Positions 1,913-60,362 of a stretch of 64,000 nt of DNA are shown here, one piece after another (positions within the stretch are counted from its first letter, which is position 1; each line of letters starts with the position of its first letter). Origin of the DNA: Eutreptiella sp. 'Long Island Sound 2002'. Lineage: Eukaryota; Euglenozoa; Euglenophyceae; Eutreptiales; Eutreptiaceae. The stretch lies in the NCBI GenBank assembly GCA_964036045.1, contig OZ038378.1, forward strand, positions 17,989,348 through 18,053,347, read 5' to 3'. A program made the translations under genes and the position numbers. The notes beneath the pieces were generated by a model. That model searched no databases. It worked only from the letters and a program-made list of their open reading frames with translations, and was not told the origin of the DNA.

Positions 1913-4723
1913 TTACGGTAAATTAAGTAGTTGGGATTTGGTTTTTTTGTTTTTGCTGTGAACTTGTCTGTGTTTGTGGGGGTGTTTATTGGCGACTGTT
2001 GTGTTTGTCCTTTTTGGGTAGGTCAACAAGGTGGGGTTGTGAGACGAAGTGCTGTAGATGGAGTATTGGTTGTTCCATGGGTTGTCTGCGCAATCTGGTT
2101 GGAGTAAGTGCAGATCGTTAATTGGGTTTTGTCTGAGCCAGGTTTGTGTCTCTTCTAGTGCTGTTTTGAGTCGTTTTCTTCTGTATTTAAAGGCTGTTTT
2201 TAGGTTTTGTAGGTGTTGGAAGTAGGGAGTGTCGGGTGGGATTTCTCTTAGTGCATTACTGAGTGAGTTGGGAATGGGCGTGCGGATGTAGTTTCTTCTT
2301 TCTCCTTTTGTTGCATGTAGCCACCAGTCGATGACTGTTTGTTTGAAGGGTTGTTGCCAGACCTCAAAAAAGAGGTCACGAACAGGTTTCGCTGTGCCGC
2401 ATTCGGTCACCGTTGTTATGGGGTCGAGGGGGTGATGAGTGTGGCATTTGGGCCATTGATATGTGTGGAGTTTGTAATGGGGAAGAAAACCAGTGCAACA
2501 GTACAGTCCGTTTGTCCATTTAGAAGGTAGTCTGGAAAACCACGATGTGTGGGCGTAGAAGTCGGTGCTAGAAGGTAGGTGTATGTTGTTGTGTTTATGG
2601 TTTGGAAGTAGGTGTTTGACAGTTTTGCGTGTAATGCGTCCTGGCAGTGGTGTATGATTGTGGTATATGAAGTGAAAAGTGTCAGGGTTGTGGTGTTCTG
2701 GGTGTTGGTGGAGGTTGAGTGATACCCATTTAGAAATTTTGTCAGAGTGCTCGTTGCCATCGAAGTCAGCGTGTCCTTTGATCCAGGTGAAAATTATGTG
2801 AAGGTGGGTGTTGTGAAGAAATTCCCAAATATAGTTGTACCAAAGAGCGAAGCAATTAGCGTTAGAAGCGAAGGGTTTAGTTTTTAATTGTTGTATTTGG
2901 TGGAGTGTGGAGCAAACCGACAGGTTGTCAATGGCAAAAATGATTGGTTGAGAGAGAGTGTCGACGTGTTGGAGGTAGGTAAACAGTATAATGGCATAAA
3001 TTTCTGCTGGGTAAGATCCTTTTATCGGTGATGTGTTGCAGATGGTTGTTGGCGGTGTAGTGTTGAAGGTGATGGCGGCGCCCGATGGCGTGTTCACTGT
3101 GGGGTCGTCCGACCCGTCGGTGTAGGCAATCGTAGCGTTAGGGTAGGCGTCGAGTGTGTCTAAAAGATCGTGGCATCCCCAGTAGTGCAGATGTTGAGGG
3201 TTTGGGGGAGAGAGATTGTTTTTCAGGGTAAACTGAATGAAATTTTGAGTGGTGGTGGTGCCAGTGAAAGAAAAAGGGAAGTTGGTCGTGTCGGGTAGTG
3301 AGAGAGACTTGGTAGGCTTGGAAATATCTTGGGATGTGGGGAGAGTAAGGAAGCGAAACTGGTGGTTGGGCGTGAGGATTGTAGACATGTCTGGGAAAGT
3401 AACTGTGGTTTTCTGAGGCGTGGGGTGGTCGACTGTGCCTCGGAACCATAGGGTCGTTTTTGTGGTGTGGGTGGTATTTCTCGTAATGGAATATGTTGGT
3501 GGGTCGCTGTTGGATTAGTAGTAAATAAAGGCGACTTCGATTGTTGTGTGTGTAGGGATTTGAGAAGGGAGACATGGGTTGACTGTGGGTATGTTGTGAG
3601 TGTGGAAACCTAAAAAGCTAGCAGAGTGGGCAGTCATGCGTTGCATGGTGTTGGGGTTAGTGGACTTGTAGCGCAAGGTGTACTTGACTCTTTCGTTGGT
3701 GTGGGAAGGTCCGTCGTCGTGTGTGTAGCGCAGTATATGGTTGATGGCTTGGATGTGGGTTACGATAGAAATTTTTGTGATGTTTAGACCTAGTGTGTGT
3801 GGGGGGAAGTATTTGGTTTTATTGGGGGTGCGAAAGGATAGTTTGCCTAACTTGGAGATATGACTCCAAATTGTGGTGTCCAGTTTGTCGAGGTCCTGTT
3901 GCGGGAGTGAGTTGTAGATTAATCGGTAGGTGAGGGTAGGTATCAGTTGTATGTTGGATAGTTTTATGACTTCGTTGTGTGTGAGAGGGAGGGTGGATAT
4001 GTTGGCGAAAAAGGCGTGAATGGTGTTGAGTAGAAGTTGGAGCATGCTGGGGTTTTGTTGTTTGTTGAAAAGGTAGGTGCCCAGGTATTTATAAAAAACC
4101 CTGGGGTCGCCGTCATTGGTAAAAGTACTGAAATGTTGGGTAGGACTAATACTAATGGTGATGTGGGTGGCGTTGTTGAGGGCGTGGAGTTCCGACTTCG
4201 TAGTGTTAAAAGAAAGGCCGTATCGAGGCCCTTGGACAAAGAGGAAGTGAAGCACTTTGTGTAGAGTGGCATGGGAGGTTGTTTGGAGGGCGATGTCGTC
4301 GATGAAGGAGAAAAGGTCGTTGAATTCGTGTTTAGGTAGGAGAGATTGTATGTGGTTAATGATGGGGTCGACAAAGAGGTTAAAGAGTATGGGGGACATG
4401 GGGCATCCTTGTCTAAGTCCCCTTATACAGTGGGCTGCAAAGAGGGCGAAGCCGTTGACGACGGGGAAGTCTTGGGGGCAGGCGTAGAGGTTTTGGATGA
4501 GGTTGATGATGGAGTGAGGTATGTTGTAGTTGGAGAGTATTTGCCATAAGGCTCGGTGAGGAACGGAGTTAAATGCTTTATTTAAATCAAGATACAAGTG
4601 GTACATGTCTGGCCGCAGTGATAGGTTGGCAATCATAGTGTATATGTGGTCTGTGGTTCTGTGGTTAGGAAGTCCGCCGTATTGTGTGTTGTTGGTGAGG
4701 TGGTACGTTGTGGTGTAGTAAGT
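1913..4723 (-). pseudogene. LINE ORF2, 3' part, copy A (RT palm/thumb and RNase H)
   Basis: This is the second half of ORF2. The RT part shows the conserved blocks LDLNKAFNSV (motif A Asp), LRQGCPMSPILFNLF (motif B) and FIDDIAL (motif C, FIDD in place of the common YADD). The RNase H1 part shows AYTDGSD, AEIYAI, AIDNLS and GHADFDGNEHSD, which carry the expected acidic residues and His. Compared with copy B, this copy has a nonsense change (CAA to TAA) at 3,515-3,517, just after the RT thumb. It retains the genuine ORF2 C-terminus, which copy B lacks. The reading frame joins in phase to 15,893 across the retroposon insertion. Confidence 0.85.
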
Positions 4724-4733
4724 GAGGGTGTGT
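4724..4733. repeat. Left TSD of T-poor retroposon (unit A copy)
   Basis: GAGGGTGTGT here and at 9,881-9,890 corresponds to GAGGGTCTGT at 15,891-15,900 (one mismatch). Deleting the insert with one TSD copy restores the LINE ORF2 frame. Confidence 0.7.
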
Positions 4734-5227
4734 TTACTCTTCTGGACGCGCGCGCTGGGGTCCTGTCCCAGAACGAAAAGAAAAAAGATAGGTAAAACGC
4801 GACGAAAAAATTTTCTGAATAGCTGAAAATAAAGCTAATTAGCATAAAAAACGCTTAGGCCAAAAAGCGCGCTGCGAAACGCGTAAAAACGCGACCTGAA
4901 ATTTTTCGACGTGAAAGAGGTGAATAGTTAGCGCCGTAACAACCGTAACGCTCGTAGGACCCTAAGGCCGTCACTCTCGTCGTCTAACTAGCCGTAGGCG
5001 CAAAGAAAAACGCGTCGCGAGCAGCGCGTAAAACTCGAAAGGTTTTTCTAAGCCGCCGCGTCCCTTCGCCCTGCTTCCCTTCCTTTTATTTCCTTCTCCA
5101 TGCACCTACCTCCCCTCCCTCCTGCCCCCCCTCACCCCTTTTCATCAGCTTAGGCGACCGGCCCTGGGGGAAAAGCGGTCAACCCCTAGCAAGCAAGACC
5201 ACCATCTTCGCGGTCGCGTGGCAACAC

Positions 5228-5328
5228 GTAAGTCAGAAATTTCACCTTGGTATTGCTGCTTGCCTGCGTGCGTGAGTTGCGTAGAGTTTGATTTTCTAAA
5301 GAGAAACATTTTGATTTTTGGTTTTCAG
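5228..5328 (+). other. Intron-like GT-AG segment in the retroposon leader (unit A)
   Basis: A strong 5' splice-site match (CAC/GTAAGT) at 5,228 is followed by a T-rich stretch ending TTTTGGTTTTCAG at 5,328, giving a 101-nt candidate intron. The same signals occur at 10,383-10,483. T-rich sequence here contrasts sharply with the T-depleted sequence downstream. It is a prediction from splice motifs only. Confidence 0.4.
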
Positions 5329-5399
5329 AAAGTTTTCAAAGGCACGGAGAAACGGCAGGGGTTTTTAGCAAAGGAAAAGAGGACAAAAGGAAAAACAAT

Positions 5400-7084
5400 T
5401 ACCAGCAGCGCAGACAACCGCACAGCACAGCCAACCAGCACAGCACCGCAGGGCAGCACGGCACCGCAGGACACGGCACAGGGCGCAGGACACCACAGGA
5501 CAACGCACAGCACAGCAAGACACCACGACACACCAGAGCAGCACCACCACACCGCGGAACGCCCAGGGAGACACCGAAACGCACAGGGACACGCCACAGC
5601 ACTAGGCACCAACAACAGCGCAGACCACACTGGCGCCGGACGACAGGCCGCAGGAGGGCAAAGCAAACACAAACAGCACCGCAAAACGACAGCAGAGCAC
5701 GACAGCACAGCACCACACGACAGCACAGCGCCACAGCACACGACACAGGGAAGCAGGGCACCACAGCCAGCACAACAAGGCACCGCAGCGCACAGAGCGG
5801 AGAAGACAGGGAACGAACAGCACGAGGAAAAGAGCACCACAGCACGCAGACACCACCACCGGGCAAAAAACAGCACAGCCAACCAACAGCACAACACAGC
5901 ATAGCACGACAGCCCACAGGAGGGCAAAGCAAACCCCAACAGCACCGCAACAGGACAGCAGAGCACAACAGCACAGCACCACGCGACAGCACAGCACCAG
6001 AGAACACGACACAGGAAAGCAGGGCACCACAGCAAACCACACCAACCACAGGGAAGCAGACCACGCGGCCAGACAGGGACACCGACACCGAGACACGCCA
6101 CAAGCAGACAACCACGGGCCACCAGACCCAGCGACGCACCACGGCACACCACAGGAAACAGCACAACACACAGCAGCGCACCACAGCACCAGGCGCCAGC
6201 AAGTGCACGCACCACACGAACAGCACAACGCGAGCGCAGCAACACAGCGAAGCACAGCACCGCACAGAGCGGAGAGGACAGGGACCGCACAGCACAGCAC
6301 CCCGGGACACACACAGCACAAAGCAGAGCGGCAAACAACAGCACGCACCGCCGCGCCACGACAAAATACACACAGCACAGAGCACACAGCGCGGGGGAAC
6401 ACCGCAAAACACAGCGCCGCAGAGCGAAGGGCGACAGGCAGCGCCAGAGGGCACGGCGCAACAAACAGCGGCACCAAACGAGCGCAACACAGCACACGAC
6501 AGCACAACACCGGGCGACACAACACGCAGACACAAAAGGGGGGGGGGGGGCAGCAACCACCAGGGAGCAGCCAACAGCCAGGCGGAAAGCACGAAAGAGG
6601 GACAAGCGCACGGAGAGCCGAGAAGCGGAAGGCCAACAAAGCAAACAACGCACAGCGCCGAGGCCCAGGGCACCCGGGGCCGGAAACCAGAGAAAGCCGG
6701 AGACAACGGGAGCGCACAAAGGAAGAAAAAAAAAAAAACACCCCAAGGCACCAAGCAGGAGCGACGAAAACCGCGAGACACAACTGGGGAGGTGGGGGGG
6801 GGAGCAACCACCAAAGAGCAGCCAAGGGCCAAGCGGGAGACACCAACCAGGCGCGAGCGCACGGAGAGCCAGGCAGCGGGAGGCCGAGAAAAACAACCAA
6901 AACACAGCGCCAAGGCAACGAGGAACGGCAACAGCAGCGAGAAAGAGGAGGGCAACCCCAGCCCGGAGGGGGCCAAGCAAACCAGAAAGACAGGACGTCC
7001 AAAGGAAAAGGTGAGGCGCACCAGAACGCGCCCAGGAGGCCGGCCCGCCCTACCTGGCCAAGCAAAGCACGCACACGCACACCA
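5400..7084 (+). other. T-depleted tract (unit A)
   Basis: By eye there are only about a dozen T in nearly 1.7 kb on the plus strand, including 417 consecutive bases without T at 6,368-6,784. The tract is made of degenerate CACAGCA/ACAGCACC-like words plus G- and A-runs. Every stop codon contains T, and its complement contains A, so all six frames stay open for long distances. The large reading frames here on both strands are therefore not evidence for proteins. Confidence 0.9.
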
Positions 7085-7271
7085 GCCGCCGTCCGGATGG
7101 ACGAGTGCGCGCCCGGAGGGTACCCAGCCCCTACCGGCTACGGAACAGCCGCCGTCCGGATGGACGAGTGCGCGCCCGGAGGGTACCCAGCCCCTGCCGG
7201 CTACGAACAGCCACCGTCCGGATGGACGAGTGCGCGCCCGGAGGGTACCCAGCCCCTGCCGGCTACGAACA
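7085..7271 (+). repeat. 62-63 bp tandem repeat, 3 copies
   Basis: Three near-identical units start at 7,085, 7,148 and 7,210 with the core CCGTCCGGATGGACGAGTG. Unit B of the duplication has only two copies (12,248-12,372), so copy number changed after or during duplication. Confidence 0.9.
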
Positions 7272-7317
7272 GCCACACACCACGCGCAACCCAAAGCACA
7301 GCACACAGAGCGAACAC

Positions 7318-7436
7318 ACCGGTGAACAGGAGCCCAGTGGCCCAAGACACCGCACGCGCGACACAACACACCGAGCAGGCACACCGGTGCACAGGAGCCA
7401 AGCGGCCCAGGACACCGCACACGCAACACAACACAC
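7318..7436 (+). repeat. Start of 65-bp minisatellite, truncated (unit A)
   Basis: Almost two 65-bp units (core ACCGGTGAACAGGAGCC) are present before the duplication junction switches back to LINE sequence at 7,436/7,437. Confidence 0.85.
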
Positions 7437-9880
7437 GTGCGGATGTAGTTTCTTCTTTCTCCTTTTGTTGCATGTAGCCACCAGTCGATGACTGTTTGTT
7501 TGAAGGGTTGTTGCCAGACCTCAAAAAAGAGGTCGCGAACAGGTTTCGCTGTGCCGCATTCGGTCACCGTTGTTATGGGGTCGAGGGGGTGATGAGTGTG
7601 GCATTTGGGGCATTGATATGTGTGGAGTTTGTAATGGGGAAGAAAACCAGTGCAACAGTACAGTCCGTTTGTCCATTTAGAAGGTAGTCTGGAAAACCAC
7701 GATGTGTGGGCGTAGAAGTCGGTGCTAGAAGGTAGGTGTATGTTGTTGTGTTTATGGTTTGGAAGTAGGTGTTTGACAGTTTTGCGTGTAATGCGTCCTG
7801 GCAGTGGTGTATGATTGTGGTATATGAAGTGAAAAGTGTCAGGGTTGTGGTGTTCTGGGTGTTGGTGGAGGTTGAGTGATACCCATTTAGAAATTTTGTC
7901 AGAGTGCTCGTTGCCATCGAAGTCAGCGTGTCCTTTGATCCAGGTGAAAATTATGTGAAGGTGGGTGTTGTGATGAAATTCCCAAATATAGTTGTACCAA
8001 AGAGCGAAGCAATTAGCGTTAGAAGCGAAGGGTTTAGTTTTTAATTGTTGTATTTGGTGGAGTGTGGGACAAACCGACAGGTTGTCAATGGCAAAAATGA
8101 TTGGTTGAGAGAGAGTGTCGACGTGTTGGAGGTAGGTAAACAGTATAATGGCATAAATTTCTGCTGGGTAAGATCCTTTTATCGGTGATGTGTTGCAGAT
8201 GGTTGTTGGCGGTGTAGTGTTGAAGGTGATGGCGGCGCCCGATGGCGTGTTCACTGTGGGGTCGTCCGACCCGTCGGTGTAGGCAATCGTAGCGTTAGGG
8301 TAGGCGTCGAGTGTGTCTAAAAGATCGTGCCATCCCCAGTAGTGCAGATGTTGAGGGTTTGGGGGAGAGAGATTGTTTTTCAGGGTAAACTGAATGAAAT
8401 TTTGAGTGGTGGTGGTGCCAGTGAAAGAAAAAGGGAAGTTGGTCGTGTCGGGTAGTGAGAGAGACTTGGTAGGCTTGGAAATATCTTGGGATGTGGGGAG
8501 AGTAAGGAAGCGAAACTGGTGGTTGGGCGTGAGGATTGTAGACATGTCTGGGAAAGTAACTGTGGTTTTCTGAGGCGTGGGGTGGTCGACTGTGCCTCGG
8601 AACCATAGGGTCGTTTTTGTGGTGTGGGTGGTATTTCTCGTAATGGAATATGTTGGTGGGTCGCTGTTGGATTGGTAGTAAATAAAGGCGACTTCGATTG
8701 TTGTGTGTGTAGGGATTTGAGAAGGGAGACATGGGTTGACTGTGGGTATGTTGTGAGTGTCGAAACCTAAAAAGCTAGCAGAGTGGGCAGTCATGCGTTG
8801 CATGGTGTTGGGGTTAGTGGACTTGTAGCGCAAGGTGTACTTGACTCTTTCGTTGGTGTGGGAAGGTCCGTCGTCGTGTGTGTAGCGCAGTATGTGGTTG
8901 ATGGCTTGGATGTGGGTTACGATAGAAATTTTCGTGATGTTTAGACCTAGTGTGTGTGGGGGGAAGTATTTGGTTTTATTGGGGGTGCGAAAGGATAGTT
9001 TGCCTAACTTACAGATATGACTCCAAATTGTGGTGTCCAGTTTGTCGAGGTCCTGTTGCGGGAGTGAGTTGTAGATTAATCGGTAGGTGAGGGTAGGTAT
9101 CAGTTGTATGTTGGATAGTTTTATGACTTCGTTGTGTGTGAGAGGGAGGGTGGATATGTTGGCGAAAAAGGCGTGAATGGTGTTAAGTAGAAGTTGGAGC
9201 ATGCTGGGATTTTGTTGTTTGTTGAAAAAGTAGGTGCCCAGGTATTTATAAAAAACCCTGGGGTCGCCGTCATCGGTAAAAGTACTGAAATGTTGGGTAG
9301 GACTAATACGAATGGTGATGTGGGTGGCGTTGTTGAGGGTGTGGAGTTCCGACTTCGTAGTGTTAAAAGAAAGGCCGTATCGAGGCCCTTGGACAAAGAG
9401 GAAGTGAAGCACTTTGTGTAGAGTGGCATGGGAGGTTGTTTGGAGGGCGATGTCGTCGATGAAGGAGAAAAGGTCGTTGAATTCGTGTTTAGGTAGGAGA
9501 GATTGTATGTGGTTAATGATGGGGTCGACAAAGAGGTTAAAGAGTATGGGGGACATGGGGCATCCTTGTCTAAGTCCCCTTATACAGTGGGCTGCAAAGA
9601 GGGCGAAGCCGTTGACGACGGGGAAGTCGTGGGGGCAGGCGTAGAGGTTTTGGATGAGGTTGATGATGGAGTGAGGTATGTTGTAGTTGGAGAGTATTTG
9701 CCATAAGGCTCGGTGAGGAACGGAGTTAAATGCTTTATTTAAATCAAGATACAAGTGGTACATGTCTGGCCGCAGTGATAGGTTGGCAATCATAGTGTAT
9801 ATGTGGTCTGTGGTTCTGTGGTTAGGAAGTCCGCCGTATTGTGTGTTGTTGGTGAGGTGGTACGTTGTGGTGTAGTAAGT
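7436..9880 (-). pseudogene. LINE ORF2, 3' part, copy B (truncated RNase H)
   Basis: This copy has the same RT and RNase H blocks as copy A (motif A LDLNKAFNSV, FIDD motif C, RNase H TDGSD and GHADFDGNEHSD) but no stop at the position where copy A has TAA. It ends about 120 codons before the true ORF2 stop, because the duplication starts inside RNase H. Downstream the frame runs into the T-depleted sequence of unit A, which gives a spurious 1,533-codon reading frame. Confidence 0.85.
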
Positions 9881-9890
9881 GAGGGTGTGT
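9881..9890. repeat. Left TSD of T-poor retroposon (unit B)
   Basis: GAGGGTGTGT, paired with GAGGGTCTGT at 15,891-15,900, flanks the complete 6-kb insert. Confidence 0.7.
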
Positions 9891-10382
9891 TTACTCTTCT
9901 GGACGCGCGCGCTGGGGTCCTGTCCCAGAACGAAATAAAAAGATAGGTAAAACGCGACGAAAAAATTTTCTGAATAGCTGAAAATAAAGCTAATTAGCAT
10001 AAAAAACGCTTAGGCCAAAAAGCGCGCTGCGAAACGCGTAAAAACGCGACCAGAAATTTTTCGACGTGAAAGAGGTGAATAGTTAGCGCCGTAACAACCG
10101 TAACGCTCGTAGGTCCCTAAGGCCGTCACTCTCGTCGTCTAACTAGCCGTAGGCGCAAAGAAAAACGCGTCGCGAGCAGCGCGTAAAACTCGAAAAGTTT
10201 TTCTAAGCCGCCGCGTCCCTTCGCCCTGCTTCCCTTCCTTTTTTTTCCTTCTCCATGCACCTACCTCCCCTCCCTCCTGCCCCCCCTCACCCCTTTTCAT
10301 CAGCTTAGGCGACCGGCCCTGGGGGAAAAGCGGTCAACCCCTAGCAAGCAAGACCACCATCTTCGCGGTCGCGTGGCAACAC

Positions 10383-10483
10383 GTAAGTCAGAAATTTCAC
10401 CTTGGTATTGCTGCTTGCCTGCGTGCGTGAGTTGCGTAGAGTTTGATTTTCTAAAGAGAAACATTTTGATTTTTGGTTTTCAG
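10383..10483 (+). other. Intron-like GT-AG segment (unit B)
   Basis: Same splice-like signals as 5,228-5,328: GTAAGT at 10,383 and TTTTCAG ending at 10,483. If this were spliced in the transcript that was copied, it should be absent. Its presence means the copied RNA was unspliced or the signals are not used. Confidence 0.4.
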
Positions 10484-10554
10484 AAAGTTTTCAAAGGCAC
10501 GGAGAAACGGCAGGGGTTTTTAGCAAAGGAAAAGAGGACAAAAGGAAAAACAAT

Positions 10555-12247
10555 TACCAGCAGCGCAGACAACCGCACAGCACAGCCAACCAGCACAGCA
10601 CCGCAGGGCAGCACGGCACCGCAGGACACGGCACAGGGCGCAGGACACCACAGGACAACGCACAGCACAGGAAGACACCACGACACACCAGAGCAGCACC
10701 ACCACTACGCGGAACGCCCAGGGAGACACCACAACGCACAGGGACACGCCACAGCACTAGGCACCAACAACAGCGCAGACCACACTGGCGCCGCACGACA
10801 GGCCGCAGGAGGGCAAAGCAAACACAAACAGCACCGCAAAACGACAGCAGAGCACCACAGCACAGCACCACACGACAGCACAGCGCCACAGCACACGACA
10901 CAGGGAAGCAGGGCACCACAGCCAGCACAACAAGGCACCGCAGCGCACAGAGCGGAGAAGACAGGGAACGAACAGCACGAGGAAAAGAGCACCACAGCAC
11001 GCAGACACCACCAAAGGGCAAAAAACAGCACAGCCAACCAACAGCACAACACAGCACAGCACGACAGCCCACAGGAGGGCAAAGCAAACCCCAACAGCAC
11101 CGCAACAGGACAGCAGAGTACAACAGCACAGCACCACGCGACAGCACAGCACCACAGAACACGACACAGGAAAGCAGGGCACCACAGCAAACCACACCAA
11201 CCACAGGGAAGCAGACCACGCGGCCAGACAGGGACACCGACACCGAAACACGCCACAAGCAGACAACCACGGGCCACCAGACCCAGCGACGCACCACGGC
11301 ACACCACAGGAAACAGCACAACACACAGCAGCGCACCACAGCACCAGGCGCCAGCAAGTGCACGCACCACACGAACAGCACAACGCGAGCGCAGCAACAC
11401 AGCGAAGCACAGCACCGCACAGAGCGGAGAGGACAGGGACCGCACAGCACAGCACCCCGGGACACACACAGCACAAAGCAGAGCGTCAAACAACAGCACG
11501 CACCGCCGCGCCACGACAAAATACACACAGCACAGAGCACACAGCGCGGGGGAACACCGCAAAACACAGCGCCGCAGAGCGAAGGGCGACAGGCAGCGCC
11601 AGAGGGCACGGCGCAACAAACAGCGGCACCAAACGAGCGCAACACAGCACACGACAGCACAACACCGGGCGACACAACACGCAGACACAAAAAGGGGGGG
11701 GGGGGGGGGCAGCAACCACCAGGGAGCAGCCAACAGCCAGGCGGAAAGCACGAAAGAGGGACAAGCGCACGGAGAGCCGAGAAGCGGAAGGCCAACAAAG
11801 CAAACAACGCACAGCGCCGAGGCCCAGGGCACCCGGGGCCGGAAACCAGAGAAAGCCGGAGACAACGGGAGCGCACAAAGGAAGAAGAAAAAAAAAAAAA
11901 CACCCCAAGGCACCAAGCAGGAGCGACGAAAACCGCGAGACACAACTGGGGAGGTGGGGGGGGGGAGCAACCACCAAAGAGCAGCCAAGGGCCAAGCGGG
12001 AGACACCAACCAGGCGCGAGCGCACGGAGAGCCAGGCAGCGGGAGGCCGAGAAAAACAACCAAAACACAGCGCCAAGGCAACGAGGAACGGCAACAGCAG
12101 CGAGAAAGAGGAGGGCAACCCCAGCCCGGAGGGGGCCAAGCAAACCAGAAAGACAGGACGGCCAAAGGAAAAGGTGAGGCGCACCAGAACGCGCCCAGGA
12201 GGCCGGCCCGCCCGACCTGGCCAAGCAAAGCACGCACACGCACACCA
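10555..12247 (+). other. T-depleted tract (unit B)
   Basis: Same composition as 5,400-7,084. A single T that creates an in-frame TAG in unit A (about 5,902) is C here. The plus-strand frame is therefore open from 10,373 to 12,556, and would encode only residues whose codons lack T (His, Gln, Thr, Ala, Gly, Ser, Lys, Asn, Arg, Glu, Asp, Pro). I interpret this as compositional, not coding. Confidence 0.85.
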
Positions 12248-12372
12248 GCCGCCGTCCGGATGGACGAGTGCGCGCCCGGAGGGTACGCAGCCCCTACCGG
12301 CTACGGAACAGCCGCCGTCCGGATGGACGAGTGCGCGCCCGGAGGGTACCTAGCCCCTGCCGGCTACGAACA
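12248..12372 (+). repeat. 62-63 bp tandem repeat, 2 copies
   Basis: Two units starting at 12,248 and 12,311, homologous to the three at 7,085-7,271. Confidence 0.9.
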
Positions 12373-12418
12373 GCCACACACCAGGCGCAACCCAAAGCAC
12401 AGCACACAGAGCGAACAC

Positions 12419-15316
12419 ACCGGTGAACAGGAGCCCAGTGGCCCAAGACACCGCACGCGCGACACAACACACCGAGCAGGCACACCGGTGCACAGGAGCC
12501 AAGTGGCCCAGGACACCGCACACGCAACACAACACACCGAGCGGGCGCACCGGTGAACGGGAGCCAAGTGGCCCAGGACGCCGCAAACGCGAAACAACGC
12601 ACCGAGCGGGCACACCGGTGAACAGGAGCCAGGAGGCCCAGAACACCGCACACGCAAAACAACACACCGAGCGGGCACACCGGTGAACGGGAGCCAGCAG
12701 GCCAAGGACACTGCACACCCAACACAACACACCGAGCGGGCACACCGGTGAACAGGAGCCAGGAGGCCCAGGACACCGCACACGCAAAACAACACACCGA
12801 GCGGGCACACCGGTGAACAGGAGCCAGGAGGCCCAGGACACCGCACACACAACACAACACACCGCGCGGGCACACCGGTGAACAGGAGCCAGGTGTCCCA
12901 GGACACCGCACACGCGAAACAACACACAAAGCGGGCACACCGGTGAACAGGAGCCAGGAGGCCCAGGACACCACACAGACAAAACAACACACCGAGCGAA
13001 CACACCGGTGAACAGGAGCCAAGTGGCCCAGGACACCGCACACCCACCACAACACACCGAGCGGGCACACCGGTGAACAGGAGTCAGGAGCCCCAGGACA
13101 CCGCACACGCAAAACAACACAGCGAGCTGGCGCACCGGTGCACAGGAGCCAAGTGGCCCAGGACACCGCACACGCAACACAACACACCGAGCGGGCACAC
13201 CGGTGAACAAGAGCCGGGAGGCCCAGGACACCGCACACACAAAACAACACACCGAGCGGGAACACCGGTGAACAGGAGCCAGGAGGCCCAGGACACCGCA
13301 CACACAACACAACACAAGGCGCGGGCACACCAGTGAACAGGAGCCAAGTGGCCCAGGACACCGCACACGCAACACAACACACAGAGTGGGCACACCGGTG
13401 AACAGGAGCCAGGAGGCCCAGGACACCGCACACACGAAACAACACACCGAGCGGGCACACCGGAGAATAGGGGCCAGGAGGCCCAGGACACCGCACACGC
13501 AACACAACACACCGCGCGGGCACACCGGTGAACAGGAGCCAAGTGGCCCAGGACACCGCACACGCAACGCAACACACAGAGCGGGCACACCGGTGAACAG
13601 GAGCCAGGAGGCCCAGGACACCGCAGACACAAAACAACACACTGAGCGGGCACACCGGTGAACAGGAGCCCGGTGGCCCTGGACACCGCACACGCAACAC
13701 AACACACCGAGCACAGCGGTGAACAGGAGCCAGGAGGCCCTGGACACCGCACACGCAAAACAACACACCGAGCGGGCACACCGGTGAACGGGAGCCAAGT
13801 GGCCCAGGACACTGCACACGCAACACAACCCACCCAGCGGGCACACCGGTGAACAGGAGCCAGGAGGCCCAGGACACCGTACACGCAACACAACACACCG
13901 AGCGGGCACACCGGTGAACAGGAGCCAGGTGGCCCAGGACACCGCACACGCGAAACAACACACAGAGCGGGCACACCGGTGAACAGGAGCCAGGTGTCCC
14001 AGGACACCGCGCACGCAACACAACACACCGAGCGGGCACACCGGTGAACAAGAGCCAGGAGGCCCTGGACACCGCACACGCAAAACAACACACCGAGCGG
14101 GCACACCGGTGAACGGGAGCCAAGTGGCCCAGGACACCGCACACGCAACACAACCCACCGAGCGGGCACACCGGTGACCAAGAGCCAGGAGGCCCAGGAC
14201 ACCGTACACGCAACAGAACACACCGAGCGGGCACACCGGTGAACAGGAGCCAGGTGGCCCAGGACACCGCACACGCGAAACAACACACCAAGCGGGCACA
14301 CCGGTGAACAGGAGCCAGGAGGCCCAGGACACCGTACACGCAACAGAACACACCGAGCGGGCACACCGGTGAACAGGAGCCAGGTGGCCCAGGACACCGC
14401 ACACGCAACACAACACACCGCGCGGGCACACCGGTGAACGGGAGCGAGGAGGCCCAGGACACCGCGCCTGCAACACAACACACCGAGCGCGCACACCGGT
14501 GAACGGGAGCCAAGTGGCCCAGGACACCGCGCACGCAACACAACACACCGAGCGGGCACACCGGTGAACAAGAGCCAGGAGGCCCAGGACACCGCACACG
14601 CAAAACAACACACCGAGCGGGCACACCGGTGAACGGGAGCCAAGTGGCCCAGGACACCGCACACGCAACACAACCCACCGAGCGGGCACACCGGTGACCA
14701 AGAGCCAGGAGGCCCAGGACACCGTACACGCAACAGAACACACCGAGCGGGCACACCGGTGAACAGGAGCCAGGTGGCCCAGGACACCGCACACGCGAAA
14801 CAACACACCAAGCGGGCACACCGGTGAACAGGAGCCAGGAGGCCCAGGACACCGTACACGCAACAGAACACACCGAGCGGGCACACCGGTGAACAGGAGC
14901 CAGGTGGCCCAGGACACCGCACACGCAACACAACACACCGCGCGGGCACACCGGTGAACGGGAGCGAGGAGGCCCAGGACACCGCGCCTGCAACACAACA
15001 CACCGAGCGCGCACACCGGTGAACGGGAGCCAAGTGGCCCAGGACACCGCACACGCAACACAACCCACCGAGCGGGCACACCGGTGAACAGGAGCCAGGA
15101 GGCCCAGGACACCGTACACGCAACAGAACACACCGAGCGGGCACACCGGTGAACAGGAGCCAGGTCGCCCACGACACCGCACATGCGAAACAACACACTG
15201 AGCAGGCACACCGGTGAACAGGAGCCAGGTGGCCCAGGACACCGCACACGCAAAACAACACACTCAGCGGGCACACCGGTGAACAGGAGCCAAGTGGCCC
15301 AGGACACTGCACACAC
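12419..15316 (+). repeat. 65-bp minisatellite, about 44 units
   Basis: The unit reads roughly ACCGGTGAACAGGAGCC, then a variable AGGAGG/AAGTGG/AGGTGG word, then CCCAGGACACCGCACACGC. Starts at 12,541, 12,606, 12,671 and 12,736 give exactly 65-bp spacing. Variant units form an eight-unit, 520-bp higher-order block repeated at least once (diagnostic GGTGACCAAG at about 14,173 and 14,693). Since 65 is not a multiple of 3, any long reading frame cycles through three phases. The large minus-strand frames here are artefacts of few A on that strand. Confidence 0.95.
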
Positions 15317-15890
15317 GTAGGGCGGCCGAGGGACAGGAAAGAACCAACACCCCATGGGTCGGACACACTGGGGCGACCCAGCCGACCCACCGGGCCAGTG
15401 GCAGGAGCGGTACTCCACGGCCACTGATCCGAGCCCGGCCAGGCTGCATCGGGGACCAGGGCAAACGTCACCCGGAGCCATGGAAGCAACCGGTGACAGG
15501 CGAGCCGGTACACAGTCCAGGAGGGGGTCGCCTGCCAAGCGGAGCGGCCCCGCAACTCAAGCCACAAGGGTGAGGCGGTCGTACCGTAGACAAGCGGGAG
15601 CAATACCCCTTGTGGTGAGAGATACTCCACATGGCTGGGCAGCCCCCAGAGCTGCCGCCCAAAGGAGGGGGCAAGTGGCCCTACTCATGGACACATGTGG
15701 GGACACCCTCCCACCTGGGACACATGGACCGGGTGGCCGCGACAATGCCTTCCCAAGCACATGCGGGAGCGGCTCAAGAGGCACCTAACATAGGGCAGTG
15801 GGAGGGACAGGACGTCCCCTTGGTAAGACCTTCTTCCTGCATTGTCAAAGGAGGCATCCCGAGCTCCCGAAGATACCTACCTACCTACCT
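15317..15890 (+). other. GC-rich 3' domain and (ACCT)4 tail of the T-poor retroposon
   Basis: This non-repetitive, GC-rich segment is still poor in T and lies between the minisatellite and the LINE. It ends in four ACCT units at 15,875-15,890, directly followed by the TSD. In LINE-mobilised RNAs the 3' end is what the reverse transcriptase recognises, so this segment is the best candidate for that role. Confidence 0.5.
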
Positions 15891-15900
15891 GAGGGTCTGT
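15891..15900. repeat. Right TSD of T-poor retroposon
   Basis: GAGGGTCTGT, one mismatch from the left copies. It codes for the last residues of the ORF2 segment before the break (Gln-Thr-Leu). Confidence 0.7.
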
Positions 15901-16832
15901 GCACCGTAAGAAGCTATGATTTTGTAAAGTGTGTTAAGGAGTGCTATTGGTCTGTAGTTTGTAGGATTTTGGGGGTCGCCTTATTTGTAAAGTAGAAAAA
16001 TTTTTGCTTTAAGCCAGTGAAAAGGAATGTGGTCGGCGATAAGGAGGGAACACAGGCTGTAAATGTAGGTTTGGATATCGGGGGGGCAGATGGAGAAAAG
16101 GTAGAGAGATGTGTCGTCGAAACCAGGTGCGGTGTGTGGTTTAGCGTTCGACAAAAGAAGGTTGAAGAAGTCTCTGGTAAGGTGCGGTAGTGGAGCGTCG
16201 TTGGGTATTTTTGGGGAGTTAGTCATGAGTGTGTCGATGAAGGCTGGCTCTGTGTCGAAATCTGGGGGGCCTCCCAGGGAAGAGAGGGCGTGTCCCATAG
16301 ATTTGCACATTTCGTAAGGGTCGGTGGTGAGCTGACCAGTTTGGTCATAGAGAGAGATGGGGGTGGTGTTTCTGGGGTTGAGAATGTTGTTGATTGTCTT
16401 TTTTATGCGTTTGTGAGAAATGAGGGAGTGGTGGAGTTTCTTGTGCGCTTGTGCTTGTTTCTTTGAGGTCCAGTCATTGAGTAGTGTTTGAAGTTTTTTT
16501 GTTTTGTGTGCACTGGAGGCAGTAGAAGGTAAGTTATTTACAGCGTCAAGGAACTGTTTCTCCACGCTGGTTGGTTTGTGTTCGTGTGCTTGATGAGTCA
16601 CTTTTTTGTAGGTGTTGACTAGTTGGGTGAAAAGGAAGTCAGTCAGAGGAATAATTTGTTCAATGGGCTGTTGGAAGAGAGTGTCGTGGTGTTTGGAGAG
16701 CCAGTCGTTAAGAGGTTTACTGAGGGTAGGTAAGCGGCCGAGGCCTACGACTTCCGTTGTGCAGCCGGCTTCTGTGGCACGCCGACAACTGTCGGTCCAC
16801 AAATTTTTCGCAGGCACGTAACCGTACATCAC

Positions 16833-17357
16833 TCCGCTCTTTTTCGCAGACCCATCATTCGCTCGACTGATTCCCCAAGGCTACACGAAGTAATCGTAAG
16901 TCAGGTCACGTTTTCCTGCAGGTTTCTGCTTCTATTCATCAACTGCGGACCACAGCTTCGTCACAGTGTTCACTTACCGCTTTGTTACTCATTGCTTGCT
17001 CAGTTGCATTGGCTGTGCCTTTTTACCCCCCCCCCCCCCCAGCGACAGCAGCCTGCCGGCTGGATTTCCTGATTTTTTTGTCCTTCTACTGTTCGCCCCC
17101 CTGTCAGAGCCCCTACCCCCCTTGTATTCCCTCTGGTCCATCCTGGGGGGACCCCCCCCGCCCGCCCCATGCAGCCCCCTCCGATGCACTCACACCACAG
17201 CCCAGGTGACGTTTTCACGTACAGACTTCAGGTACATGTCCACAGTGCAGTACGTCGGTGGACGTAGATGGATGCGCTGAACTTCTTCACTCCAGGACTC
17301 AGGCAGCTACAACGGACAGGTCAGGGCCGCACCACGTTGTAGTCCGACCACCTTTGG
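16833..17357. other. Closed, C-rich segment between endonuclease and RT of the LINE
   Basis: No ORF2-frame coding is seen here. It contains a run of 16 C near 17,026 and C-rich stretches unlike the flanking G-poor LINE coding strand. Similar words (AGGTCACGTTTTC near 16,913 and AGGTGACGTTTTC near 17,204) lie near both ends. This is either a decayed linker or another small insertion. Confidence 0.35.
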
Positions 17358-18400
17358 TCATAGTGGGCCGCAGGTTTCCGCAAGTGTCCATAAGTTCCCT
17401 CCATGTAAATACGTCCCGCGATTGAACCACAGTGAACTCTGAAGATGTTGAGATGTCAAAAGAGGTTTACTGAGGGACGTAAAATGTGACTTTTCTTCTT
17501 TGCTTAGGGGGCGGTAGTGAATGGAATTGTGTGGAATGTTGTATATGTTAATCGGGTTGGTAGGGATGGCTATGGAAGTGGATACGGTTCGGTGGTCGGA
17601 GATGTCGTTGTGAATATCAATGAAGGTGTTGAAAGGTTTGAAAATGGTGTCTGAAGAAGGAGAGGAGAGAATCAAGTCGATGCGTGTGTGAGACGGGAGC
17701 CTTTTGTTTGCAGGGCGCGTCCACTGTTTTGTCTCTGGGTGGTCCTTACGATACAGGTCAATGAGGGTTGGTGTGGTGGTGGGATTGGTGGGGTGTACCT
17801 GGTCGTGGAGCCAAGGCCAGTATTTATTGTGTTTGATATTAGCCGTGTCTAGAGAAGGTTGGAGATATGTGTTGAAGTCGCCGAGCATGATGCGGCACCG
17901 CTGGTCTTGTTGGAGGGCGGAGATTGTTTTCTCTAGCCTGTGTCGGAGATGAGCGTGATGTGATTTGTACACGTTAATGATACGGAGTGTGTGGTAGCCT
18001 GGTATAGTAAGGTCGATGGCAATAAGGCATCCATTGACCTTGTCGTGTTTGATTTGCGTGACGAAAGGAGATAGGGAAGAGTGAATGATACCCGCTGTGC
18101 GGTTGGATTTGTCAGAAGATATGTTTGTGAAAGTGTGTAGGTTTAGAAGTGAATGTAAGGAGGGGGCGGTAGGTATTTCCTGTAAACAAAGTATGTCGGT
18201 TCCTTGTTGTTGGTGTCGTAGTATAATGGCGTCTAGGTTGTCAATTTTTTTTGCAGTGTTGTGAGTAGTGAGTGTTAAACGTGTTTTAGAGTGGATTAAG
18301 TTGTCTGTTGGTGTGGTAGGTTTAGGTGCTTTGTGAATGTTGGTATCGTAACTTGGTGGTTGGGGGACTCCCGGTGGAAGGGGGATATCAATTGACGGCA

Positions 18401-20336
18401 TCATGATGATGAGGGAGATGGGAGCACGTGTCTAACACTGACCACTTCCGAGACATTCCTTGATCTTGACGAGTCCTCGAGTCTAACGTGAGGCCGTTTT
18501 GGCAGTCGTGGCCCGAATGGGTCAAGAAGGAAGCACTTGCAAAAAGATAAACTCTTCATCCGGTCATGACAGAGATCAGTCAGGCCACTTGCTGGCGACT
18601 GATAGGGCAGAGTGACACTAGCCGTGCAAACGAGTACCCGGTGGTGGCTTGGATGAATCAAAATCTTGACATCCCGAAGATGAGTGAACGAAATCCACAC
18701 GGCGTGCGGGAAGCATTGTGAGGAGAGTGTACGTTCCAGTGTGTTCGCATTGTTTTCGATGCGTGGCACAATATCTTGCGAGGTGATGCATCGCGAGTGG
18801 TTAGATGTAATCGCTTCGAGAAATAGCAGCATGATAAACGGATCATACCGTTGGTATTGAGAGGAGTGAGGACGGAGAGAATCCGCATCTCTGAGTAGTG
18901 ACATAGTGAAGACATTGAGAACTGGATGAAAGAAAGAGTGTGGGTGGGTGGGGAGTCATTGGGGCTTGGCAAAGATCAATCTCTCATTGATGGAGCGCAA
19001 TTGTTTCTCGGAGCCAAATTCTTTGGCGGCCAAGAGTGTGGCTTCCCATTTAGAAGTGGCATGGTCTTTCAGAATTGAATCAATGATGTTTTGTTTTTTC
19101 AAGAGGTTGGGCGAGCCGGATGTAAAAGTGATGCCTTGAAATTTTTCTTGGTGTGCTAGGATACTGGATCCCAGGTTTTGGAAGAGCGCTTCAAAATATT
19201 GGTGTGATTTGGCACTTGGGTTGCATTCCAGCGGTTGGATGGAGATGAAGGTACCAAAAAGTGAAGTTGCTTTGTTGATGTCTCTAAAACTTATGGAGCG
19301 TGGAGCACAAATGACCACCGATTCGGCGTTGGTTGGTGTGTAGGAGGGTTTAGCCCGGTAGCTTAGTGAAGCGTCGGACAAAACTGCATATGTGTTATCG
19401 TGATTGAAAAACTGAGGCCCGCTTTCTTGCATTGTTCGTTCATCCATTTGAGTTTTGAAACTCGTGTTTCGGTGGTGCTTGGAATGGAGTGGACATCCAG
19501 ATGCATCAATACCGAGTATTTGGTGCGTAGAATTGCGAATTGCAGAATCGAATTCATTTTTTCAAGAGAGACCACTCGATTTAGAAGCTCCGTGGGTTCG
19601 AGCTTGACTCCGTTTTTCGCGGAGCTTTTTGAGGCGGAGATCATGAAAGTATTTTCATGGGCGGAGAGGTTGTAGGGGAAAGCCATAATGAGTGGATTCC
19701 TGTCTGGTGGGTAATGGAATTGAACGGTTTTGGCAATTTGGGAGGAGAGGGCTGAGTTGGTTTCGATGTCGAAACAAGCATGGGTGCTGCCAATGGGCGA
19801 GCCCCTTTTTTTTATCTCACCGCGGTAGTGTGCGCAATTGGTGGAGGTAATGGATGAGGCATCTTGGAGGTCGGGTTTGATTAATTTGTTGAAAAATTGG
19901 AAAGCATCTTCCTCGGTGAGGACTTCGAGGTCTCGCGAAATGTCAATTCTGACATAATCAGTGATTGGTGGTGTGTGACGGGCTTCTTGTTGCGGAGAGA
20001 TAAAAGCCTCGGCTTGTGCTAGGTCATGGCCCGGCGAAATAGGAGAGAATTTGGGCGGTGTGTATTGGAACTCCGAAAGGTTGTCCAAAGTAATCATAAT
20101 ATATCCCTCCGGGTGTGGGGCGGAGCAAGTGTCAAAAGGTTTTTGATCATTCTTGAGGACCATATTCAACGGAACAAAGTTTTGGGAGATTTTTTGGTCA
20201 ACCATAAACCTCCTTGCTTTGGCGTAGGCTTGAGAGTAATCCCAAATCCCGGTCGTGGCTTCACACACTCTCGGGTCTGACACCAAAAGAATAAGCGTAC
20301 CCCTTACATGTATTATAGCACGCGCAAGCGACGCCA
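18401..20336 (-). pseudogene. LINE ORF1, C-terminal two-thirds
   Basis: This is the continuation of the ORF that starts at 32,150, split by LTR element B1. On removing B1 and one 5-bp TSD the frame runs on through LLNALA/SLARAII. No known domain (RRM, CCHC, esterase) was recognised. The frame shifts near 19,400. An in-frame TGA lies at 18,956-18,958, but the same frame remains open to the real stop at 18,401-18,403, which overlaps the ORF2 ATG. That overlap and the position upstream of an APE-RT ORF identify it as ORF1; its biochemical role is unknown. Confidence 0.65.
20332..20336. repeat. TSD of LTR element B1 (left)
   Basis: CGCCA here and CGCTA at 31,236-31,240 flank the element, with one mismatch. 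Five base pairs is the usual Ty3/gypsy TSD length, and the LINE ORF1 frame is restored by removing the element. Confidence 0.75.
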
Positions 20337-20870
20337 TGAAAGTGCTGCCCTAGGTCGTGGATGGTGCCGGAGGGCTCAGGGCCGGCAAGACCAGGGGGGC
20401 AGGCACGCGAGGAGTCGACCCGAACGCTGCTGTTGGGGGCAGAACCGGATACACGGGCACCAACGGAGGCAAGAGCGGCGACAACGGAGGCAAGATCCAT
20501 GCTGATTGTTATCCGGCAAAAAATCCCAGTCTATGAAGAAAATTGATGCGGATATTCCTAAGTACACCTGAGTGTCCATATCTATCTGAAAAGATTTATA
20601 AAAATCCGATTGTGAAAAAATATTTGGCCCATTTGGCTCGCGCGCGCGCGTCAGCGGCAATTGGCGATTCCGGGTAAATGATCGGAACGCGGCGGATCTA
20701 CGATGAATGGACCGCGGAATCAGATCCGGCACATCAGAAATATATAGGTCTGATCCTGAGACTGAGCTGCGGGGCGGCGATTCCGCCGAAGCAGAGAAAA
20801 TGGCCAAAATGTAGCCAATCTGGGGCAGATCTGCGAAAATCTGAGCAGATGGGGGTTAGCTGCACTTACA
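20337..20870 (-). repeat. 3' LTR of B1
   Basis: 534 bp, TGTAAGTGC...CACTTTCA on the minus strand. It is nearly identical to 30,702-31,235 and to the 533-bp LTR at 59,830-60,362. It still has the ATG used by gag in B2. Confidence 0.9.
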
Positions 20871-20880
20871 CTCCCCCTCC
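20871..20880 (-). other. Polypurine tract of B1
   Basis: GGAGGGGGAG on the minus strand directly abuts the 3' LTR. This is the standard plus-strand priming site for LTR element replication and confirms orientation. Confidence 0.75.
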
Positions 20881-22676
20881 AAAAACACACTGGGGTGTGT
20901 CTCTACGTCAACGAAGAACGTAGTGCGGGTAAGTCCCAGAAAAAATAGAAATGTAGCCTCGATGGGGCGAAATCTGCTTGATCCGACCTGATTTGGGCTG
21001 AATTGGCACTGAATCAGGATGGATGAACCTGAAATGAGACAGAATGAGGAGTGACGAACAGTCCTCCGGGCAGTAAAACATTAGGTTAAGGGCTAAAAAG
21101 CATGTAAACGTATCGAGAATCGATACCAAACCATGCCCTGGTTGAGAATGAGGTAGATTATTGGTGGATTGAGTGGGAGAATCAAGAAATGGAGTGACAT
21201 CTCGGCGCTCTGGCACAGTTTAGCTGTCGCGGGCACGCTACGGTGTCCTCCACGTACTCTACATCGTGTTACTCCCGCTTTTCTCGTTCTGAAAAGTGCA
21301 GCATGTGCCTCAGATTTGGCGCATCTGGTGGATGATCACAAGATTCAGCAAGGTTGAGAATCAATTTGAGCAGAGATGAAGGAGATGAAACAATCACAGA
21401 GAGGGAAAACAAATACAAATGTAGTCTGCAACCCCTAAGTGAACAGAAAAACATCAGCGTCAACGAAGTTAGGCAAAGCCGTAAACAGATCTTCGAGGAA
21501 TGAGAGGAGATGACAAGGAAATCAACCTAAACTGTCCTAAAATGAGCAAATTCCCTAAGATGAAGGTGAAATGAAGCGGAATGTCTAGAACTGAAACTAC
21601 TAACACCTTCGTTTAGACTAGAGTTAATATATATTGTCGTTCATTCAGCTGAATTGTGCTTTCCGGCACGTTGGTTCGCGAGCATCCAACAGATTCCATG
21701 AAAATGTGGATCATGTGATGATGCATCATGATGGGACATGATGGCCCTGGATCCTTGGCATGTAACGCGCCGAAGGTTCGCTGAAGGCGCTTTACTGACA
21801 GTATATAACTGAGAGACACCGAATAGTCCTTTATTTACAGTGGCGGCTGTGTCAATCGACTTGGACAAGGCCCATCTTTCGATTGAGTCCCACAAGACAC
21901 TTGGATTCACCATTTTCGACAGTTTCAGGTCGGATTGAGCTCACATTGGCGTGTGCCAAAAATACAACGAAGCTTACGGACCTCAGAGGTTGCTGTTAGA
22001 AGTCCCTAGAGCTCCTATATGAAGGTTGTCTCAACAATTGACGTCAGGGTTTTGCGCAACAGTGGCAGAATGATGGACAAACCCGAGGAATTCAAGGTAA
22101 ATTCAAGGAATCTGGATCTGAATCTGGACTTTGGCTTCAGCATCACGGCAAATGAAGGTAAGATCTGAGTTCTACTACAGGGGGTGCCTGTAGGGGTGAA
22201 TGTCGCTGGCCAGCGTTTTTACTATGTACATTTGCTTCCATCTGCACGATTAGCCAAATTCCAAAGATGCACAGACCAACAGAGACAAGATTACCCTGGA
22301 CCTGCCTGAATTAAGCCTGAGTTTGGTTTTTTCTGGACACGGCAGCACACTCCGTGGCTTTCGGCAGCGTATCTATGCCTTGTCTGCCGAACGGAGACCA
22401 AAGAAAAGTTGATTGACGTCAAATTATCAAACATTCGCAGTTCTCCACATCATGTCGTAATCAGGAAGAATGAACAGTGGATTGAGCAGAATGTGGTTTT
22501 TTCAAGTCGTCAGAACACTCACATTGGAATAAGTGGTCGACGGGGCGAGGCTGGAGCTTTTGTAGGAGTGGGACATGTAGGAGGGCTTCGAGCCTACACC
22601 CTTGAGCCCTAGCGACGAGTGCCATGACGCCCTGGATAGACGACTGTTACCCAGATTATGGCGTCGGCGACTCAAG
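20881..22676 (-). other. B1 3' non-coding region
   Basis: About 1.8 kb lies between the end of pol and the PPT. No reading frame with family resemblance, no tandem repeat and no RNA gene was recognised in it. Confidence 0.5.
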
Positions 22677-27818: not shown

Positions 27819-27821
27819 CTA
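27784..27821 (-). promoter_or_regulatory. gag TAG and potential pseudoknot in B1
   Basis: Stop TAG at 27,821-27,819. GGGGAG (27,819-27,814) can pair with CTCCCC (27,798-27,793). AAATTGCC (27,807-27,800) can pair with GGCGATTT (27,791-27,784), with one G-U pair where B2 has G-C. The arms alternate, as in an H-type pseudoknot. Confidence 0.55.
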
Positions 27822-30800: not shown

Positions 30801-30865
30801 GGGGCAGAACCGGATACACGGGCACCAACGGAGGCAAGAGCGGCGACAACGGAGGCAAGATCTAT
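27819..30865 (-). pseudogene. Gag of B1 (start lost, frameshifted)
   Basis: Homologous along its length to the intact 1,011-codon Gag of B2 (60,199-63,234). Pieces lie at 30,670-30,170, 30,127-29,417, 29,523-29,002 and 28,982-27,819 in shifting frames. It includes the capsid-like region (NGNPRRWPQFQREFKLW), a Cys/His cluster (HCSICLLLGS then H and H) and a Gly/Asn-rich, RGRG-containing tail. The initiation codon inside the 5' LTR is ATA (30,865-30,863), where B2 and the 3' LTR have ATG. It ends in TAG in frame with pol. Confidence 0.85.
30690..30701 (-). other. Primer-binding site of B1 (initiator tRNA-Met type)
   Basis: TGGTAGCAGAGG directly follows the 5' LTR end. It is the complement of CCTCTGCTACCA, the 3' end of initiator tRNA-Met in many eukaryotes. 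It is also inside the gag reading frame. Confidence 0.8.
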
Positions 30866-31235
30866 GCTGATTGTTATCCGGCAAAAAATCCCAGTCTATG
30901 AAGAAAATTGATGCGGATATTCCTAAGTACATCTGAGTGTCCATATCTATCTGAAAAGATTTATAAAAATCCGATTGTGAAAAAATATTTGGCCCATTTG
31001 GCTCGCGCGCGCGCGTCAGCGGCAATTGGCGATTCCGGGTAAATGATCGGAACGCGGCGGATCTACGATGAATGGACCGCGGAATCAGATCCGGCACATC
31101 AGAAATATATAGGTCTGATCCTGAGACTGAGCTGCGGGGCGGCGATTCCGCCGAAGCAGAGAAAATGGCCAAAATGTAGCCAATCTGGGGCAGATCTGCG
31201 AAAATCTGAGCAGATGGGGGTTAGCTGCACTTACA
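30702..31235 (-). repeat. 5' LTR of B1
   Basis: 534 bp, same ends as the 3' LTR. It contains the 5' end of gag; its gag start codon is mutated to ATA. Confidence 0.9.
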
Positions 31236-59829: not shown

Positions 59830-60362
59830 TGTAAGTGCGGCTAACCCCCATCTGCTCAGATTTTAGCAGATCTGCCCCAGATTGGCTACATTTTGGTCAT
59901 TTTCTTTGCTTCGGCGGAATCGCCGCCTCGCAGCTCAGTCTCAGGATCAGACCTATATATTTCTGATATGCCGGATCTGATTCCGCGGTCCATTCTCCGT
60001 AAATCCGCCGCGTTCCGATCATTTACCTGGAATCGCCATTTGCCGCTGACGAGCGCTCGCGGGCCAGATCGGCCAAATATTTTTCACAATCGGATTTATA
60101 TAAATCTTTTCAGATAGTTTTGGACACTCAGATGTACTTAGAATAATCCGCATCAATTTTCTTCATAGACTGGGATTTTCTGCCGGATAACAATCAGCAT
60201 GGATCTTGCTTCTGTTGTTGCTGCTCTCGCCTCCGTTGGTGTCCGTGTATCCGGTTCTACCCCCAACAGCAGCGTTCAGGTCGACTCCTCGCGTGCCTGC
60301 CCCACTGGTCTTGCCAGCCCCGAGCCCTCCGGCACCTTCCACGACCCAGGGCAGCACTTTCA
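59830..60362 (+). repeat. 5' LTR of B2
   Basis: TGTAAGTGC...CACTTTCA, 533 bp. It contains the gag ATG at 60,199, so the last 164 bp of the LTR are protein-coding. Confidence 0.9.

Follow-up and report, generated by a model that had tools for sequence, protein, structure and literature searches.

A high-copy composite retroposon with a nearly T-free core in Eutreptiella

The genome of Eutreptiella sp. 'Long Island Sound 2002' contains a high-copy family of composite retroposons, about 5-9 kb in length, that consist of a 5′ module, a 1.7-kb core, tandem repeats, a 3′ module, and an (ACCT)n-like tail. The modules and the tail recur in differing flanks, T is nearly absent from the sense strand of the core, and changes that are shared among copies of the core are deficient in T, a deficit seen in neither the 5′ nor the 3′ module. 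Core DNA that has already been inserted gains T at a normal rate. Comparison of the copies suggests, with a rough probability of 0.55, that the core of the source elements is likely held U-free by selection on the RNA, most likely against splicing or another process that reads U. It is an even bet that the core is a kilobase-scale RNA domain that tolerates A, C, or G at most positions and from which U is purged in the lineages that are still copying, and the rule likely concerns one letter, not a sequence. A mobile RNA that tolerates nearly any change but U would be a rare, countable readout of host RNA processing, and the thousands of natural copies make the U rule testable by counting.

Architecture and insertion site of the window copy

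The window is the whole stretch of 64,000 nucleotides that was analysed, starting at position 17,989,348 of its contig. The element, its host LINE, and a local duplicate are placed in it as follows.

4734..7436, + strand: tandem duplicate, with the 5′ portion of the element
7442..9880, - strand: downstream part of the host LINE, with its reverse transcriptase and RNase H regions
9881..9890, + strand: left target-site repeat GAGGGTGTGT, pairing with 15,891-15,900 with one mismatch
9891..9903, + strand: CGCGCGCGCTGGGG, 13-nt spacer from the target repeat to the conserved 5′ start
9904..10521, + strand: 5′ module of normal T content, 96-100% identity among 40 places scored
10383..10483, + strand: predicted GT-AG intron-like unit of 101 nt (GTAAGT ... 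TTTTCAG) within the 5′ module
10522..12246, + strand: T-free core with ~270-bp internal repeats (consensus of 34 copies, 2 T in 1,744)
12169..12179, + strand: AAAAGGTGAGG, splice-donor-like, with the sole GT of the core and one of its two conserved T
12246..12375, + strand: 62-bp tandem repeats, 2.1 units in the window copy
12398..15314, + strand: 65-bp VNTR, 44.9 units in the window copy, array length differing among copies
15317..15874, + strand: 3′ module, 12% T, with a 144-aa open frame lacking coding constraint
15875..15890, + strand: (ACCT)4 tail
15891..15900, + strand: right target-site repeat GAGGGTCTGT
15901..16880, - strand: upstream part of the host LINE frame that the element interrupts

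The original prediction, made from the letters of the window, described an insertion flanked by a 10-bp repeat with one mismatch, ending in (ACCT)4, and restoring a LINE frame upon excision. The repeat and the tail were found on checking, and joining the flanks in silico produces a single 696-aa open frame spanning the junction. An RVT_1 domain was scored with Pfam on the other LINE copy, at 3,515-4,834. The second core in the window, at 5,400-7,084, does not stem from a second insertion, as it belongs to a 5.16-kb local tandem duplication that took in the LINE together with the 5′ portion of the element (2,279-7,436 and 7,436-12,602), at whose junction, position 7,436, a VNTR unit is joined to LINE sequence. 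T is involved in 6 of the 16 core changes between the tandem duplicates, and the duplicate in the window gains T freely.

By module, the window copy has 23% T in the 5′ module, 0.7% in the core, 3% in the VNTR, and 12% in the 3′ module. Its core has gained T relative to the consensus. A T content below about 1% had been claimed for both cores and was confirmed by counts of 12 in 1,693 bases at 10,555-12,247 and 12 in 1,685 at 5,400-7,084; the 417-nt T-free run described at 6,368-6,784 was confirmed to the base, and a run of 424 nt lies in the other core (11,523-11,946). Of all 1,693-base stretches in the window, those of the element have the fewest T, so the near-absence of T is not due to chance. 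The minisatellite that follows the core is T-poor, as described, with 91 T in 2,917 bases at 12,398-15,314, and its unit consensus, derived from 446 units, has one T, CACCGGTGAAC.

Copies, ends, and T content across the family

Searches were made in the window's own genome, which comprises 2,280,300,865 bases in 2,205 contigs. First-look candidates, counted as lower bounds, numbered at least 2,802 for the 5′ module, at least 4,305 for the core, and at least 1,768 for the 3′ module. Forty candidates were scored in each module search, and identity among the matches listed was 96-100%, 84-100%, and 98-100%, respectively. The claim of a mobile, strand-asymmetric retroposon family is upheld by these numbers, the ends of the element being far from single-copy, and by the common 3′ tail and differing flanks of the copies. 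A local rearrangement or a lone satellite was rejected as an alternative, as the copies sit in different flanks.

Both ends were recognized by pattern in 13 complete copies, the window copy included, among 20 stretches (L009-L028). These copies have an identical module order, span 5,005-8,702 nt between the 5′ start and the tail, contain 22-67 VNTR unit anchors each, and end in an (ACCT)n-like tail, which outside the window has 3-5 units, some with one altered base. Exact target repeats of 10-15 bp flank four of them, the window copy has a repeat of 10-11 bp with one mismatch, one copy has a weak repeat (9 bp, one mismatch), and none was found for the other seven; in a cross-paired null, scores of 9 or more were reached in 2 of 156 cases. 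The spacer between the target repeat and the 5′ start is 1 to 16 nt long in the other copies that bear target repeats. Two pairs that share flanks, L012/L023 and L021/L022, are duplicated loci. Searched at the protein level, the 3′ frame returned 83 clusters, of which 28 extend past the 3′ module and across the tail to unrelated sequence. Among the 83, copies truncated at the 5′ end, in which the junction of unrelated sequence with the 3′ module varies in position, were spotted by eye rather than counted systematically (P0015, P0017, P0039, P0046, P0059, P0063, P0070, and P0078).

The consensus of the core, built from 34 copies, has 2 T in 1,744 positions, and all 31 readable copies retain both. 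The neighbouring modules of these elements are richer, with 22-23% T on the 5′ side and 11-13% on the 3′ side, and at the border between the 5′ module and the core the T content jumps from 22-23% to near zero. The longest T-free runs in the core are 937 nt (L009) and 954 nt (L040). In the first set of bounded cores, 15 of 19 have 0.18-0.71% T, and the remaining four (L015, L016, L020, and L024) have 1.6-2.1%, most of it supplied by one common nested insert of ~120 bp with ~25 T; this subfamily has been copied onward despite the T in its core. Among 18 further stretches, the cores of L031, L036, and L042 carry 35-37 T, consistent with the presence of that insert, and three others are mixed, two of them (L030 with 49 T and L039 with 58 T) without a bounded core end and the third (L046) with 184 T. 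When columns common to most copies are considered, T numbers 3-15 in 33 of 34 cores, 24 in L030, and 2 in the consensus. Some T also persists in the 62-bp repeats and the VNTR. The rule that excludes U is not absolute, because the T-bearing nested insert was copied on and the VNTR unit keeps one T among its 65 positions.

With private changes other than to T taken as a measure of age, the T count of a core shows a weak positive correlation with age (Spearman 0.45 for all 34 cores and 0.40 without L030). The corresponding intercepts are 7.1 and 6.2 T, and a T-free birth of the copies is therefore not shown.

Private and shared changes in the core

If the birth state of the core or a general bias acted alone, changes to T would be equally frequent among shared and private changes. 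Shared changes would be those of the source elements, and private ones would mostly have arisen after insertion. In a strict set of 33 cores, 130 of 543 private changes were to T, compared with 9 of 124 changes shared by at least two copies (p=1.3e-5) and 1 of 54 common to at least three (p=2e-5), where these and the other p-values assume that changes are independent. The same pattern was obtained from 34 cores under a looser filter (169/805 private, 14/236 shared) and from a tree, on which 191 of 1,184 terminal changes but only 7 of 118 internal ones were to T (p=0.002). Cores without a boundary (L010, L023, and L028) were left out, as were the duplicates L022 (of L021) and the window tandem duplicate (of the window copy), and L046, which is mostly foreign. 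L030, with 227 private non-T changes, is mosaic or misaligned and was kept in the tree and the 34-core counts but not in the strict set.

The nine shared changes to T occur mostly in pairs of copies; four are CpG C>T changes in otherwise unremarkable pairs, and one, also at CpG, is common to three copies. Parallel mutation may therefore explain several of them. Along consecutive parts of the core, shared changes to T number 0/17, 1/15, 4/39, and 4/53, a gradient that is suggestive only. Since the core copies are the best matches to the 5′ module of the window, the test is carried by a few close subfamilies.

Decay of CpG is expected to affect both strands alike. At CpG sites in the core, private changes comprise 40 C>T and 38 G>A, whereas shared changes comprise 5 C>T and 31 G>A (p=0.00016), and from this asymmetry the loss is confined to T on the sense strand.

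The adjoining modules served as controls, with a gap filter looser than that of the strict core set; under that filter, 17 cores gave 69/363 private and 4/97 shared changes to T. Among changes from non-T bases, those to T in the 5′ module made up 29/94 of the private and 7/20 of the shared ones, and in the 3′ module 22/96 and 7/13, the latter a difference in the opposite direction (p=0.039). Shared changes to T in the core differ from those of the two modules pooled (14/33) with p=5.6e-6, whereas the private rates, 24% in the core and 27% in the modules, are similar (p=0.44). A reverse transcriptase biased against T was rejected as the cause, as it would also affect the 5′ and 3′ modules, with their 14 of 33 shared changes to T.

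An unrelated T-poor family, here family B, is present in the window at 32,893-34,430 (5.4% T) and has at least 5,572 first-look candidates, of which 40 were scored and found to be 92-100% identical. Nineteen copies put through the same strict test showed no significant T deficit (116/359 private, 12/55 shared; p=0.16), which speaks against a genome-wide or methodological strand bias, although family B leans in the same direction as the core, with p=0.057 in its first 1,150 columns.

Possible causes of the deficit and relation to known elements

Selection on the RNA was one of the causes put forward in the original prediction, and it is the one favoured by the comparison of private and shared changes. 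In this reading, a LINE would mobilize the RNA of the element in trans by target-primed reverse transcription, and U would be purged from the source RNAs by selection, not by a local mutational process. With less confidence, the spliceosome may be proposed as the reader of U. A spliceosomal donor (GU), a branch point, and a U-rich tract all require U. The core is CAG-rich and is placed between the acceptor of the conserved intron-like unit and its own single GTGAG donor near the 3′ border; GTAAGT is present in 22 of 22 rows of the unit and TTTTCAG in 19 of 22, rows that include duplicated copies. In a post hoc comparison, 50 of 130 private changes to T but 0 of 9 shared ones place the T after a G (p=0.026), and a GT or branch-like context, picked after the data had been seen, likewise accounts for 0 of 9 shared changes (p=0.013). 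Shared T changes are also scarce outside the GT context, a scarcity that splice donors by themselves leave unexplained, and the stop-codon and ATG contexts of the T changes revealed nothing clear. Avoidance of splicing is the most likely reader of U in these data, tentatively so and with the odds against it. If it is correct, splice-proofing would offer intron-sized non-coding RNA a route past the spliceosome; another reader would point to an unknown U-directed process, and a rule at the level of the letter would imply a host process that senses single U residues in the transcript of the element.

T in the core could also be converted to C with no selection involved, by a mutational process acting there alone, such as directional hypermutation or template-strand base editing within an RNA-DNA hybrid, and the confinement of the effect to a single region and the sense strand is as expected of a strand-specific, editing-like process. 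This account is nonetheless improbable, given that both consensus T are intact in all readable copies, that only two private T>C changes occur, that private changes to T arise at the same rate as in other modules, and that T jumps so abruptly at the module border. Directional hypermutation, as originally suggested, is contradicted by the two retained T and by the normal T of the adjoining modules. It is also unlikely, to a lesser degree, that the composition is simply inherited by a young core grown from T-free, CACAGCA-like words, with the shared differences arising from shuffling of internal repeats. The internal repeats are ~73% identical and strongly word-like in composition, and growth from such words, another of the original suggestions, fits the origin of the core, with repeat copies ~27% diverged; it does not account for the lack of T, as neutral divergence adds T. 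Furthermore, the best internal-repeat pair differs at 59 sites, only 2 of them with T and 23 of them AG differences, whereas transitions predominate among the isolated shared changes of the strict set (77 of 115 non-T changes). Shared C>T changes number 6 against 48 G>A, and the 5:31 asymmetry at shared CpG sites is unexpected from either shuffling or youth.

An RNA nearly free of U had also been expected to be largely single-stranded, and folding predictions agree, with 65% of the core unpaired (-0.186 kcal/mol per nt) compared with 39% for window positions 20,001-30,000 (-0.30). Selection could act on openness itself, for reverse transcription or protein loading, with the lack of U as a by-product, and passages of PMC8770142 discuss structure-poor, A-rich RNA as an aid to cDNA synthesis. 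Low structure does not appear to be what is selected, however: C>U changes are near-neutral for folding (mean predicted effect +0.09) yet depleted when shared, and A>G changes, which stabilize by 1.2 kcal/mol on average, are common among shared changes, leaving this account quite improbable. Least credible of all is that the core is a coding exon that lacks T through avoidance of stop codons or an amino-acid bias. In the absence of T all six frames are open, but none has a synonymous excess (z -1.6 to +1.1), gaps are not in threes (10 of 38 are multiples of three), A and G runs are variable, and 91 of 130 private T changes create no stop. The 144-aa frame of the 3′ module has an N/S of 3.08 against 2.62 expected and shows no coding constraint either.

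The open-access literature, searched partly with narrow terms, yielded no retroposon described as T-free or U-free. LINEs and SINEs with short-repeat tails have a fixed 3′ end, partial target repeats, and 5′-truncated copies. The present element resembles them in its 3′ end at a tandem repeat, in the target repeats of some copies, and in its 5′ truncations, and it differs in being far longer (5.0-8.7 kb), with no protein seen. The common short-repeat 3′ end, the unrelated flanks, and the 5′ truncations are features of target-primed reverse transcription by non-LTR elements. A SINE transcribed as an RNA polymerase III gene was rejected, as the window contains neither a tRNA (ARAGORN) nor an Rfam match that would mark a tRNA-, 5S-, or 7SL-like head and the 5′ module contains 19 overlapping TTTT matches. 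An autonomous LINE was rejected as well, as the frames of the element are T-poor repeats and the core and the 3′ frame lack synonymous constraint; Pfam scoring covered frames outside the element.

SVA elements have a poly(A) tail, in contrast to the (ACCT)n tail of the present element, which moreover has a 1.7-kb T-free core before its VNTR. In architecture the element is similar to SVA and LAVA, described in PMC4432496 as hominoid VNTR-composite non-LTR retrotransposons, reportedly mobilized by LINEs in trans, with a 5′ domain, a central VNTR of variable length, and a unique 3′ domain. The mark of VNTR composites, a central VNTR that is flanked by unique 5′ and 3′ domains and differs in length from copy to copy, is found here too. 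A second parallel is with HUSH surveillance, which according to passages of PMC8770142 follows the sense-strand A content of retroelements, including the protein-coding L1 ORF2 with 41% A and 20% T. Both cases involve a sense-strand bias of A over T that an RNA-linked host system could read and in which composition, not sequence, matters; unlike L1 ORF2, the core of the present element has ~0.1% T in its consensus and is non-coding.

A second T-poor retroposon family

A second T-poor retroposon, family B, lies on the forward strand at 32,893-34,430 of the window and bears no relation to the main element with the T-free core. Its consensus contains 5.4% T and ends in an (AAACCTC)n-like tail, with a target repeat of ~60 bp. 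The window copy, whose 5′ end is cut compared with other copies, is inserted in a Gypsy-like gag frame. A genome search with family B returned 5,572 first-look candidates, and identity among the 40 scored was 92-100%.

Nested and neighboring insertions

Four genomic copies of the main element, L015, L016, L020, and L024, constitute one subfamily whose core contains a nested SINE-like insert of ~120 bp, reading GGTGGCACAGTGC...poly(A), that travels within the core. The LINE hosting the main element also holds a third insertion at 16,710-17,476, bounded by the repeats AAGAGGTTTACTGAGGG at 16,710-16,726 and 17,460-17,476. The sense strand of this LINE at 7,442-9,880 (-) contains little G (12%) and abundant C (35%), which is another strong strand bias.

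Duplicated stretches

Two pairs of related stretches occur in the window:
2,279-7,436 and 7,436-12,602, a 5.16-kb tandem duplication
27,053-31,235 and 59,830-64,000, an inverted pair of Gypsy-like stretches

The tandem duplication can serve as a clock for T gain; its duplicates differ by 40 substitutions over ~4.8 kb of aligned columns, repeat arrays excluded, distributed by aligned segment as 19/2,457, 5/664, and 16/1,691. The inverted Gypsy-like pair shares 95% identity across 4.2 kb.
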